Source: a virus
Strand: one strand, 5' to 3'
IMG/VR virus record: IMGVR_UViG_3300011114_000226
Span: 1-63,616 of that record
Length of the DNA stretch: 63,616 nt
Both the position numbers and the translations under genes were made by a program. The notes beneath the pieces were generated by a model, which worked only from the letters and a program-made list of their open reading frames with translations, had not been told where the DNA came from and did not search any database. Below are positions 7,672-49,297 of this stretch, one piece after another. The number at the start of each line of letters is the position of its first letter. The stretch's first letter is position 1.

Positions 7672-8741
7672 GTATTGTTTTAGATCCAGTTAACGGAATT
7701 ACCCAAGCCTCATGGACTACAGCAGGTCGCCCTGCTTCGCCTAGTGCAGGTCAGGTAGGGTTTAATACAAGTTTAAATTCGTTAGAACAATATACAGGCA
7801 CAGCTTGGCAAACAATACCAAGTTGGACAACAGCGAATAGACCCGTAACACCCGTAGCTGGATACCAAGGATACAACACTTCACTAAGTGCTTTTGAGTT
7901 TTATAACGGCACGACATGGGTTGGGTTTAATAGTTCTATTCCGTATTCTGTGTCTTACCTTGTGGTTGCAGGTGGCGGTGGTGGCGGATATTATTTTGCT
8001 GGTGGTGGTGGAGCTGGTGGTTATTTAACAGGTACAACAAATTTAATAGCTGGAACTACATATACCATTACAGTGGGTAGTGGCGGAGCTGGAGGAACAT
8101 CATCAGTAAATATAGCATCTAGTGGTGTTGATTCATCAGTATCAGGGTCTGGATTAACAACTATTACTTCAACTGGTGGTGGTGGTGGTTGTGGTGGTGG
8201 ATCTGGAAATGGATTAAATGGTGGTTCAGGTGGAGGCGGTTCTGGAGCTTCTGCAGGCGTAGGAGGATCTGGAACTCCTGGTCAGGGAAATAATGGTGGT
8301 ACAGGCGCTCAAGGTTCAGCAAATTTTGGCGGAGGTGGCGGTGGCGGTGCTTCTGCGGTAGGAGCTGTGGGAACTGGATCAGTAGGTGGTAATGGCGGTG
8401 CAGGAACAGCTTCAAGTATTACAGGTACTCCAGCTACTTATGCTGGTGGTGGTGGTGGCGGAATTTATTTATCAGGTACTGTTGGTACAGGAGGATCAGG
8501 CGGAGGTGGAGCTGGATCTATAGGTCTTGCAACTGCTGGAACTGCAAATACAGGTGGTGGCGGTGGAGGATCTGAAAGAGGTAGTGGAAACACATCAGGT
8601 GCTGCAGGTGGTTCAGGAGTAGTTATTATTTCAGTGCCAACAGCTTCATATAAAGGAAATTACACAGGACCTGCTACAACAGGAACAAACGGATCAAACA
8701 CTTGGATTAGATGGACAGGTTCAGGAACATATACAGCTTAG
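7668..8741 (+). CDS. Glycine-rich tail adhesin, copy 3
   Basis: The protein has 357 residues. The N-terminus differs from copies 1 and 2: two repeats of WTTAGRPASPSAGQVGFNTS and WTTANRPVTPVAGYQGYNTS type, each ending in an aromatic-rich YNGTTW-like phrase. It then has the same junction (IPYSVSYLVVAGGGGGG), a polyglycine middle and the conserved SGVVIISVPTASYKG tail with GSGTYTA at the end. The gene overlaps the preceding small gene by four bases. The protein is a mosaic of a trimeric fibre-attachment N-terminus and the shared glycine-rich receptor tip. Confidence 0.75.
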   Translation: MSIVLDPVNGITQASWTTAGRPASPSAGQVGFNTSLNSLEQYTGTAWQTIPSWTTANRPVTPVAGYQGYNTSLSAFEFYNGTTWVGFNSSIPYSVSYLVVAGGGGGGYYFAGGGGAGGYLTGTTNLIAGTTYTITVGSGGAGGTSSVNIASSGVDSSVSGSGLTTITSTGGGGGCGGGSGNGLNGGSGGGGSGASAGVGGSGTPGQGNNGGTGAQGSANFGGGGGGGASAVGAVGTGSVGGNGGAGTASSITGTPATYAGGGGGGIYLSGTVGTGGSGGGGAGSIGLATAGTANTGGGGGGSERGSGNTSGAAGGSGVVIISVPTASYKGNYTGPATTGTNGSNTWIRWTGSGTYTA

Positions 8742-8750
8742 GAGAAAGAA

Positions 8751-9863
8751 ATGCCAATAACAATTAACGGAACAACAGGGATAAACAACGTAACTTGGTC
8801 AACTGCAGGTCGTCCACTCTCGCCTGCTACAGGTCAAACAGGTTATAACACAACCCTCAATGCCTACGAAACATACAACGGTACTGGCTGGACTGTGACT
8901 GCATCATGGACAACTGCAAATCGCCCTGTAACTCCCGCTGCAGGATACTCAGGCTATAACACAACCCTAGCTGCATTTGAATTTTATAATGGTTCATCTT
9001 GGGTTTCTATTAACTCTAACTATCTTATTTATACAGCTTCATATTTAATTGTAGCTGGTGGTGGAGCTGGTGGTGGTTGTGGTCCAGCAGGTGCTAGATA
9101 TGGTGCTGCTGGCGGAGGGGCTGGTGGATATTTAACTGGGACTATAACATTAAATGTGGGGACAGTTTATACAGCTGTTGTAGGCGCTGGAGGAACTGGA
9201 GTTGCAGCTGCGAATCCATCATCTGCTCAAGGTGGTAGCGGATCTAATTCAACTTTCCCAGGAGTAACTGCTACTGTAGGTGGCGGTGGTGGCGGATATG
9301 ATACGGGTCCAGTTGGATCAAATGGATCTTCTGGAGGCTCTGGCGGAGGTGGTGGAGGTAATGGTAGTGTTGGTGGTAGTGGTACATCTGGACAAGGTTC
9401 TGCTGGAGGTAGTTCATCTCCAATTCCATCCCCCCAAGGAGCTGGTGGTGGTGGCGGTGGCGCAGGTGGTGTAGGATCAACCGCAACTAATGGTGTAGGA
9501 GGTAATGGTGGTGCGGGTACAGCCTCATCTATTACTGGAACTCCTGCTACATATGCTGGTGGTGGAGGTGGCGGACTTTATACATCTGGTACTGCGGGAT
9601 CTGCGGGATCTGGAGGTGGAGGTGCTGGAGGTGCGGTTGCAAATTCTGGTGCTGCTGGTACAGCTAATACAGGTGGTGGAGGTGGTGGAAGTTCAGCCAA
9701 CGGCGGATTGTTAGCAGGAGGTAATGGTGGTTCTGGTGTAGTTATTCTATCCGTCCCAACTGCAAACTATACGGGTACCGTAACAGGTTCACCAACAGTG
9801 ACAACATCAGGAAGTAATACTATAATTAAATGGACCAGTGGTTCTGGTACATACACAGCTTAA
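8751..9863 (+). CDS. Glycine-rich tail adhesin, copy 4
   Basis: The protein has 370 residues, with SD GGAG before the ATG. It has the same N-terminal type as copy 3 (WSTAGRPLSPATGQTGYNTT, then WTTANRPVTPAAGYSGYNTT), junction YTASYLIVAGGGAGGGCG, a glycine-rich middle with one Cys, and the conserved C-terminal tail (SGVVILSVPTANYTGTVTG, then a TSGSGTYTA end). Copies 3 and 4 form one pair and copies 1 and 2 the other. An HNH endonuclease gene follows three bases later. Confidence 0.75.
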   Translation: MPITINGTTGINNVTWSTAGRPLSPATGQTGYNTTLNAYETYNGTGWTVTASWTTANRPVTPAAGYSGYNTTLAAFEFYNGSSWVSINSNYLIYTASYLIVAGGGAGGGCGPAGARYGAAGGGAGGYLTGTITLNVGTVYTAVVGAGGTGVAAANPSSAQGGSGSNSTFPGVTATVGGGGGGYDTGPVGSNGSSGGSGGGGGGNGSVGGSGTSGQGSAGGSSSPIPSPQGAGGGGGGAGGVGSTATNGVGGNGGAGTASSITGTPATYAGGGGGGLYTSGTAGSAGSGGGGAGGAVANSGAAGTANTGGGGGGSSANGGLLAGGNGGSGVVILSVPTANYTGTVTGSPTVTTSGSNTIIKWTSGSGTYTA

Positions 9864-9865
9864 CA

Positions 9866-10354
9866 ATGACTACACAAGATAAATTAAAAGAGCTTTTTAC
9901 ATACAACGAAGACGGAACCTTTACTAGAAATAGCACGGGTAAAGTTGTAAAATGTTCTAAAACAAAAGGGCAACGCTATCTAAGAATAGGTATAGATGGT
10001 AAACCACGCTCTTTACACAGAATGATATTTTTATACCATCATGGTTATTTACCTAAAGTGACAGATCATATTGATGGCGACAGGTATAATAATAGAATAG
10101 AAAACTTGCGTGAGGTAACTCAACAAGAAAATTGTTTTAATAGTAAACATAGAACGACTAGCAAATCGCCATATAAAAATGTGTATTTGCAACCACCAAC
10201 TAAGAATTCTAATTGGAAAAGAAATTGGGTTGTTAGTTTAATGGTAAAAGGTAAACGTATTTATGTAGGTAGTTTTGAGGATTTAGAGCTTGCTAATTTA
10301 GTAGCACATGAAGCAAGAGCTAAGTATCATGGAGCATTTGCTCGTAATTTTTAA
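9866..10354 (+). CDS. Free-standing HNH endonuclease with AP2-like domain
   Basis: The protein has 162 residues from the ATG encoding MTTQDKLKELF. Upstream in-frame codons belong to the adhesin C-terminus and were rejected as a start. An HNH_3-type core lies at about residues 46-82 (SLHRMIFLYHHGYLPK, then TDHIDGDRYNNRIENLREV), with the catalytic DHIDGD.YNN..NLR pattern. The C-terminal part (KSPYKNVYLQPPT, WVVSLMVKGKRIYVGSFED) is an AP2-like DNA-binding domain. This is the standard make-up of mobile homing-type endonucleases of phages. It is wedged between tail genes with no link to their function, and the next gene has an abnormal ATT start. Confidence 0.85.
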   Translation: MTTQDKLKELFTYNEDGTFTRNSTGKVVKCSKTKGQRYLRIGIDGKPRSLHRMIFLYHHGYLPKVTDHIDGDRYNNRIENLREVTQQENCFNSKHRTTSKSPYKNVYLQPPTKNSNWKRNWVVSLMVKGKRIYVGSFEDLELANLVAHEARAKYHGAFARNF

Positions 10355-10365
10355 ATTGGTAAATT

Positions 10366-10372
10366 AAAGGAG
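10366..10372 (+). promoter_or_regulatory. Strong ribosome binding site that fixes the ATT start
   Basis: AAAGGAG with seven bases to the ATT codon. It is one of the better Shine-Dalgarno matches in this region and leaves little doubt that translation begins at 10380 despite the near-cognate initiation codon. Confidence 0.75.
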
Positions 10373-10379
10373 AACTAAA

Positions 10380-10733
10380 ATTTCACACTTCGCTAAAGTA
10401 ACAGACGGTAAGGTAACGCAAGTTATCGTTGCTGAAAAAGAATTCTTTGATACCTATGTAGATTCTACACCAGGTGAATGGATTCAAACATCGTACAACA
10501 CACAAGGCGGTAAACATCTTTTAGGTGGTACACCACTACGTGGTAACTACGCTGGTATTGGTTATACCTATGACAGAGCTAACGATGTATTCTATGCACC
10601 ACAACCATATGCTTCATGGGTTTTAAATAAAACTACATGGACTTGGGAAGCTCCTGTAGCAATGCCTACTGATGGTAAACAATATACATGGGATGAAGCA
10701 GTTAAGAACTGGGTTGAAGTAGCAGCTCTGTAA
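10380..10733 (+). CDS. Conserved phage virion-region protein read from an ATT start
   Basis: The protein has 117 residues. It begins SHFAKVTDGKVTQVIVAE after the initiator and ends near WDEAVKNWVEVAAL. I recognise it as a widespread small phage protein that normally begins MSHFAKV; the inner motif NYAGIGYTYDRANDVF and the late Trp-rich end fit that family. Here the initiator position is ATT. The frame is closed by TAA at 10365-10367, only four codons upstream, and none of those codons is ATG, GTG or TTG. A full AAAGGAG ribosome site ends seven bases before the ATT, exactly where expected. The gene is intact to its stop. Function unknown; probably structural. Confidence 0.85.
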   Translation: MSHFAKVTDGKVTQVIVAEKEFFDTYVDSTPGEWIQTSYNTQGGKHLLGGTPLRGNYAGIGYTYDRANDVFYAPQPYASWVLNKTTWTWEAPVAMPTDGKQYTWDEAVKNWVEVAAL

Positions 10734-10801
10734 TGAAGATCCTAGTTGGGGTTTTAATTACACTTTGTTTACTTGTTTGGGTACATTGTTTAGGGAGTTA
10801 A
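10733..10801 (+). CDS. 22-residue single-pass membrane peptide
   Basis: The start codon overlaps the previous stop (TAATG) and the stop ends two bases before the next gene. The peptide reads MKILVGVLITLCLLVWVHCL plus two residues: a lysine, then a continuous hydrophobic helix. It sits at the head of the lysis cassette. Tight coupling on both sides argues that it is translated. It might be a small lysis regulator or antiholin-like peptide; no family assignment is possible at this size. Confidence 0.55.
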   Translation: MKILVGVLITLCLLVWVHCLGS

Positions 10802-10802
10802 A

Positions 10803-11075
10803 ATGAACATGGAAAAAATAACTAATATGTTGTTCCCAGTAATAGTCTCGGCTATTGCTTGGTTACTTACGTCAATGTCATCCATTCAAGCTGACTTAAT
10901 TAATATTAAATCTAAAATGCCTATTCTTATTACAGAACAAGGTGTGCCAACTGACAGTCCAGTATCAGCGGATCAAAGAGCAAAGCTCAAAGAAGAGTTA
11001 AAATTACAAATAGCTGAACTGTCTATCCGTGTAAGACTTTTAGAAGAACATGAAAAAACAAGAGGATATAAATAA
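10803..11075 (+). CDS. Small membrane protein of the lysis cassette
   Basis: The protein has 90 residues. One N-terminal transmembrane helix (about residues 10-26, LFPVIVSAIAWLLTSM) is followed by a hydrophilic region and a charged coiled-coil C-terminus (DQRAKLKEELKLQIAELSIR). SD GGGAG precedes the ATG; the stop shares a base with the next start. The layout resembles i-spanins or holin accessory proteins. A similar but inverted arrangement (coiled coil first, membrane helix last) occurs in the protein at 57434. Role in lysis is inferred from location directly upstream of the holin and endolysin. Confidence 0.65.
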   Translation: MNMEKITNMLFPVIVSAIAWLLTSMSSIQADLINIKSKMPILITEQGVPTDSPVSADQRAKLKEELKLQIAELSIRVRLLEEHEKTRGYK

Positions 11076-11560
11076 TGTTTAGTATCTTAAGTTCAATTTT
11101 AGGTTTTGCAACCGCAGGTCTACCAAGTATCCTTGGCTTCTTCCAACAAAAGGGAGATCAATCGCATGAGCGTGAGATGGCTAGACTACAAAATGAACAA
11201 GCATTACTTATGGCTGAAAAAGGCTTTGTATCTCAAGAAAAAATAGCAGCGATTAATTTGGAGGGTACTTATGCAGAAACATTTACTCAAGAAAGACAAG
11301 CGCTTTATGAACACGATGCGAAACTTGTACACGATGCAGCACCCTGGGTTAGAACTCTTAATGCAGCTGTCCGCCCTATTGTTGCTTTCACTTTTGTAGC
11401 ATTACTTATATTTGTAGATGTAGCTGGTTTTATTTGGGCTGTAAATACTGTAGGGTTTAGTCGTGAGTCTATGGATGTTATATTTTCATCCGATGAAATG
11501 GCTATCGTAGGTTCTATTATTGGTTTTTATTTTGGTGCTAGGACTTGGGAAAAGAAATAA
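11075..11560 (+). CDS. Holin of the three-transmembrane, GTA-type family
   Basis: The protein has 161 residues: an N-terminal hydrophobic helix (SILSSILGFATAGLPSILGF), a charged amphipathic middle (HEREMARLQNEQALLMAEKG, up to AAPWVRTLNAAVRPIVAF), then two transmembrane helices (about 105-127 and 140-156), ending in FGARTWEKK. The W-x-R-x-LNAAVRP-x-VAF motif and the FYFGARTWEKK end are characteristic of the 'holin of 3TMs' family (PF11351-type) found in gene transfer agents and phages. It would form the inner-membrane lesion that releases the endolysin encoded immediately downstream. Confidence 0.85.
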   Translation: MFSILSSILGFATAGLPSILGFFQQKGDQSHEREMARLQNEQALLMAEKGFVSQEKIAAINLEGTYAETFTQERQALYEHDAKLVHDAAPWVRTLNAAVRPIVAFTFVALLIFVDVAGFIWAVNTVGFSRESMDVIFSSDEMAIVGSIIGFYFGARTWEKK

Positions 11561-49286: not shown

Positions 49287-49297
49287 GGAAATGAATT

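Follow-up and report, generated by a model that had tools for sequence, protein, structure and literature searches.

A conserved phage gene with a probable inherited ATT start downstream of an HNH homing endonuclease gene

The window analysed here is a 63,616-nucleotide stretch of viral DNA (positions 1 to 63,616 of IMG/VR record IMGVR_UViG_3300011114_000226), in which a tail-fibre-like gene, an HNH homing endonuclease gene and a conserved phage gene follow each other on the same strand (Table 1). Ahead of the conserved gene the window reads TAA AGG AGA ACT AAA (10365-10379), then ATT and then TCA, and the frame opened by this ATT runs for 117 codons (10380-10730) to a stop at 10731-10733. A first-pass annotation had named ATT the sole usable start of the gene. 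Indeed, no ATG, GTG or TTG precedes it back to an in-frame TAA at 10365-10367, and the earliest canonical start inside the frame lies 94 codons in. The annotation placed this TAA four codons upstream; it does exclude canonical starts, but it is the fifth codon before ATT, four others separating the two. The other local claims hold: AAAGGAG, a strong Shine-Dalgarno (SD) sequence, stands at a proper spacing of exactly seven bases, and the frame is conserved, with the N-terminus typical of the family, M[SGA]H[FY]AKV, beginning exactly at the AUU. Among SD-backed ATT frames in the window, only the one at 10380 lacks another start, as the ATT at 49295 runs straight into an ATG. RNA folding near the start was ordinary (z -0.03) and Rfam gave no match across 8700-11100; we therefore rejected the idea that the gene is split by a group I intron or another structured RNA.

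Table 1. Features around the ATT start in the window.
Feature	Position	Strand	Basis
Glycine-rich tail-fibre-like protein gene, 5' of the HNH insert	8751..9863	+	Pfam Gly_rich_2, E 2e-15
HNH homing endonuclease gene (longest ORF from 9830)	9866..10354	+	Pfam HNH_3, E 8e-16; PHROG 99 HNH endonuclease, E 3e-53
Leader of the ATT gene, ATTGGTAAATTAAAGGAGAACTAAA, unlike ATG relatives	10355..10379	+	Alignment at the start
Shine-Dalgarno AAAGGAG	10366..10372	+	Seven bases 5' of ATT; duplex -8.7 kcal/mol versus ATG-relative median of -6.2
ATT start codon	10380..10382	+	Sequence and family comparison
Codons 2-5, TCACACTTCGCT, where the exchanged 5' patch ends; they differ synonymously from ATG relatives (TCACATTTTGCA)	10383..10394	+	
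Gene for a 117-aa conserved phage protein, PHROG 7759 (function not assigned), ATT-initiated	10380..10733	+	Profile match

The encoded protein matches the PHROG 7759 profile over its full length (E 3e-31, residues 2-114 on profile positions 2-121 of 125), and members of this family adjoin tail-fibre genes in pelagi-, cyano-, roseo- and Methylophilales phages. AlphaFold2 predicted a mostly beta structure with a mean pLDDT of 91. In a PDB fold search with this model the best match, a cyanophage Pam3 fibre, was not significant (E 0.62), and a search of a viral structure library returned uncharacterised proteins only. The window and most ATT contigs contain no second copy of the gene (exceptions are the loci L089 and L092), so we rejected the idea that it is a spare copy.

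We then compared start codons across the family, in which the ATT loci come from metagenomic contigs and none from an isolate. Of 124 distinct loci, 108 start with ATG, ten with ATT, five with GTG and one with TTG. Among 80 IMG/VR relatives fetched via protein similarity, 73 have ATG, six GTG and one, L024, an ATT whose leader is nearly identical to that of the window. A pattern scan for an SD followed by ATH and SHFAKV codons found nine contigs, all with ATT; an SD-free ATH scan gave eight contigs, none new to this set, again all with ATT and all with AAGGAG. The leader of the ATH-start members is AAGGAGAACTAAA or a close variant, and no ATG member of the family was found with the leader GGAGAACT. 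SD duplexes of ATT genes reach -8.7 to -9.2 kcal/mol versus a median of -6.2 kcal/mol for ATG genes (p 1.4e-5); some of the ATT loci were ascertained through an AGGAG pattern, and the SD-free scan showed no exception. The GTG members (L010, L018, L029, L032 and L152) and the TTG member (L108) also have strong SDs throughout, while those of ATG members are often weak. In a gene tree of 120 genes, built with the start codon left out, ATT is scattered, with at least three forced changes and six at the fewest. ATT is thus retained in related genomes, at ten family loci, although ATG members are interleaved with them.

The same leader precedes ATT outside the family. Searching for WAAGGAGAACTAAAATT alone, without a protein query, we found that WAAGGAGAACTAAA plus ATT opens an ORF of at least 60 codons, with a canonical upstream start absent, in 29 of 37 contigs (23 non-redundant), whereas the control of leader plus ATA or ATC opened a long ORF in none of 89. 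Nearly all ATA control matches are normal ATATG starts; with these removed, the comparison is 29/37 versus 0/11 (p 3e-6). The leader is also common before ATG (at least 120 matches) and so represents a strong initiation site in general use among phages; of the ATH codons, ATT alone was seen to work after it. Leader plus ATT opens long ORFs in ten other phage families, including a virion protein, relatives of jumbo-phage proteins and a late-transcription sigma factor homologue (L179); the ATT gene of L195 appears, from reading its sequence, to encode a primase-like protein. For two ATT families, isolate homologues were checked; their first residue lies at the same position, with ATG or TTG as start codon. 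In bacterial genomes the ATH pattern gave one unrelated chance match. Two side observations concern the gene 5' of such ATT genes: in L178 (1910-2476, minus strand) it encodes a homologue of Acb1, an anti-CBASS protein (Pfam E 5e-13), and in L176 (2873-3712) and L201 it is a helicase gene with an intein-C-terminus-like sequence near its start (NDHNYIANDTVVANC), which L185 lacks.

The annotation had considered a single-base change from ATG near the HNH insertion, and this did not stand. Codons 6-40 of the window gene are 97-100% identical to those of the ATG relatives L001-L004, whereas the leader, the ATT and codons 2-5 are all unlike L001-L004 and resemble the ATT-type phages L085 and L086. 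Differences from L001-L004 amount to 4-7 of 15 in nucleotides 1-15 against 2 of 105 in nucleotides 16-120 (p 3e-6 to 2e-3), and versus L002 and L004 the leader is 35-40% and the body 89-91% identical. Three further ATT/ATG pairs (L084/L103, L088/L099 and L086/L106) likewise have leaders 35-50% and bodies 84-92% identical. Because leader, start and codons 2-5 differ while the rest is near-identical, we conclude that a short 5' patch was exchanged. The pattern of differences would suit a co-converted tract that stops around codon 5, but identity to the donor is only about 70% overall. A conserved island marking an endonuclease site in the window and L085 was rejected: the best 30-column window falls exactly on the start, but block shuffles reach it in 45% of cases. 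On the left side, the end of the fibre gene (...TACACAGCTTAACAAT) is common to the window and L001-L003 and is followed in the window by the HNH gene. As both the fibre end and codons 6 onward are of the local type, and what lies between them is unlike L001-L004, the whole stretch from the HNH gene through leader and ATT to about the fifth codon looks like a single block from a donor.

The HNH insertion that the annotation noted nearby is borne out by the Pfam and PHROG matches as a homing endonuclease gene directly upstream. It is free-standing, with an HNH domain. No SD of its own was seen (9830-9868) and its likely start, ATG 9866, sits just past the fibre stop TAA (TAACAATGA), which suggests translational coupling to the fibre gene. 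The same site is occupied in L085 by a gene of the same HNH family, whose protein is 66% identical to that of the window, and is free of HNH in L001-L004 and L006. In L082 (860-1240, minus strand) a different HNH gene lies directly 3' of the ATT gene, the C-terminus of which is altered (98 aa).

We consider it probable that the gene genuinely starts at ATT 10380, that this start is inherited and that its short 5' patch was moved by recombination, here most likely together with the HNH cassette from an L085-like donor. Leader, ATT and the first few codons would form a patch that travels between phages. In the window, the fibre-gene end on the left and the sequence from about codon 6 on the right would stem from the local ATG-type phage, with donor DNA in between, and homing would be the likely means by which it arrived.

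An alternative that accepts the AUU start attributes the movement of the patch to ordinary homologous recombination between mosaic genes of the tail module, with the HNH gene as a bystander. It draws on the scatter of ATT over the gene tree, on the high mosaicism of the tail-fibre region and on the ATT relatives that have no HNH gene upstream (L024, L082, L084, L086 and L088, and most of the ten family ATT loci). The HNH-preceded window and L085 both have ATT, but ATT also occurs in HNH-less relatives. HNH is therefore associated with ATT but not required, homing is unnecessary for the presence of ATT, and ATT may be older than the HNH gene or may spread through ordinary recombination. Against a mere bystander, however, ATT was found in 2/2 HNH-preceded relatives versus 8/122 others (p 0.006), and elsewhere homing endonuclease genes (HEGs) of unrelated types adjoin ATT starts, while none adjoins the listed ATG control genes. 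The gene directly 5' of ATT is of the HNH_3 type in the window and L085, an HNH gene with NUMOD3 in L177, a NUMOD3/homing endonuclease in L179, a homing endonuclease fragment in L182 and a GIY-YIG gene in L184. Counting only families in which ATT is certainly the first possible start, which drops L184 since it has a canonical start upstream in the ATT frame, a HEG lies directly upstream in 4 of 11 ATT families versus none of the 78 listed ATG-leader families (p 1.4e-4). The ATG control consisted of 101 upstream neighbours among the matches listed, checked with Pfam. With Pfam alone on both sides the small samples give 3/11 versus 0/78 among the matches listed (p 1.5e-3). We judge the bystander explanation unlikely.

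The upstream-frame ending K-E-N-stop of the leader was considered as a HEG signature and rejected, KEN ending 22 of 110 upstream genes among the ATG-leader loci listed. In a small sample of isolated phages, none had a HEG followed by ATT. A bolder extension, which we put forward tentatively and think rather doubtful, is that HEGs in uncultivated phages repeatedly convert the start of the invaded gene from ATG to ATT, the 3' end of the cassette bringing SD and ATT. The altered start may lower the expression of an essential neighbour and, as a speculation, the change in the start region may protect the carrier from its own enzyme.

Could the gene instead be silent or nearly so, its ATG having decayed to ATT so recently that the frame persists? 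AUU is a poor start for the CAU anticodon (PMC10158994), and damage is seen in two ATT copies, L089 being a remnant and L092 carrying a one-base frameshift that leaves the copy in two pieces; this would also fit a weakened start. Selection speaks against such a loss. Pairwise dN/dS among ATT members of the PHROG 7759 family is 0.07-0.31, and 0.08-0.27 between the window and its nearest ATG relatives; these values fall within the ATG background or close to it (median 0.21, 5-95% range 0.12-0.34), so that ATT genes show ordinary purifying selection and are as constrained as ATG genes. In two jumbo-phage families, whose ATG members were not sampled without bias, dN/dS is 0.02-0.06 and 0.09 and ATT is kept across saturated synonymous divergence. 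Decay would also have to explain why ATA and ATC are absent though equally near to ATG, one of them via a transition, why a strong SD stands at every ATT locus and why essential functions are expected for the products of several ATT families. Recent start loss is thus very improbable. At L089 (5319-5468, minus strand) just ten SHFAKV codons come after the ATT leader before the 50-aa frame passes into the C-terminus of a fibre protein, which makes it a remnant of recombination at precisely this boundary; the contig also holds a separate, full, ATG-started copy.

A misread ATG, in sequencing or assembly, was a further concern of the annotation and is scarcely credible: there is only one record for this phage, but the same ATT recurs across contigs, across metagenomes and across gene families, two records or assemblies agree exactly at several of the junctions, and the leader and codons 2-5 differ too.

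Given a genuine ATT start, the strong SD AAAGGAG would position the 30S subunit at AUU, and the initiator tRNA would decode AUU through a third-base mismatch. The protein would then start fMet-Ser-His, with a yield probably below that of ATG. In vitro, an initiator with a CAU anticodon reads AUU at reduced efficiency and with fMet (31% full-length product at 1.5 uM IF3), and no product came from those mismatches with AUC that the assay covered, a set that left out CAU with AUC or AUA (PMC10158994). We rejected a phage-encoded initiator tRNA or IF3 that favours AUU, as neither was found: neither the window nor any of 19 ATT loci contains a tRNA gene, and the window's record has no IF3_C domain. 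By analogy, the low-level or IF3-sensitive start proposed in the first-pass annotation fits what is known of AUU elsewhere.

Gene finders commonly accept only ATG, GTG and TTG, and ATT genes may therefore be missed or trimmed, among them the late sigma factor homologue and virion proteins. If our reading is true, a recurrent, SD-backed ATT exchanged between phages would extend AUU initiation far beyond the few known bacterial cases.

One of these is infC of E. coli, which starts with AUU. A second E. coli case, pcnB, is cited in PMC13009471, and cvfC1 of S. aureus combines AUU with an extended strong SD and yields about 10% of AUG expression (PMC13009471). In these genes AUU limits initiation, and the window's AUU, with its strong SD and probably reduced yield, resembles them, cvfC1 being the closest measured analogue. 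Unlike these fixed chromosomal regulatory cases, ATT starts of the window type belong to phage genes from at least ten families, share one leader sequence and are patchily exchanged between phages. Within PHROG 7759, known phages carry the same protein family at the same site near fibre genes, but the seven isolate or genome records checked have ATG where the window has ATT. Our literature searches turned up no start-codon replacement by homing. The HEG link suggests a route for selfish genes to alter the translation start of the genes next to them, and in T4-like phages endonuclease-driven homing brings co-conversion of flanking DNA (PMC2988022). As with the free-standing HEGs of these phages (seg and mob), whose flanks are converted in homing, the window's HEG adjoins a conserved phage gene; it differs in that its endonuclease activity is predicted and in that the patch beside it supplies the neighbouring gene with an SD and a non-canonical start codon.
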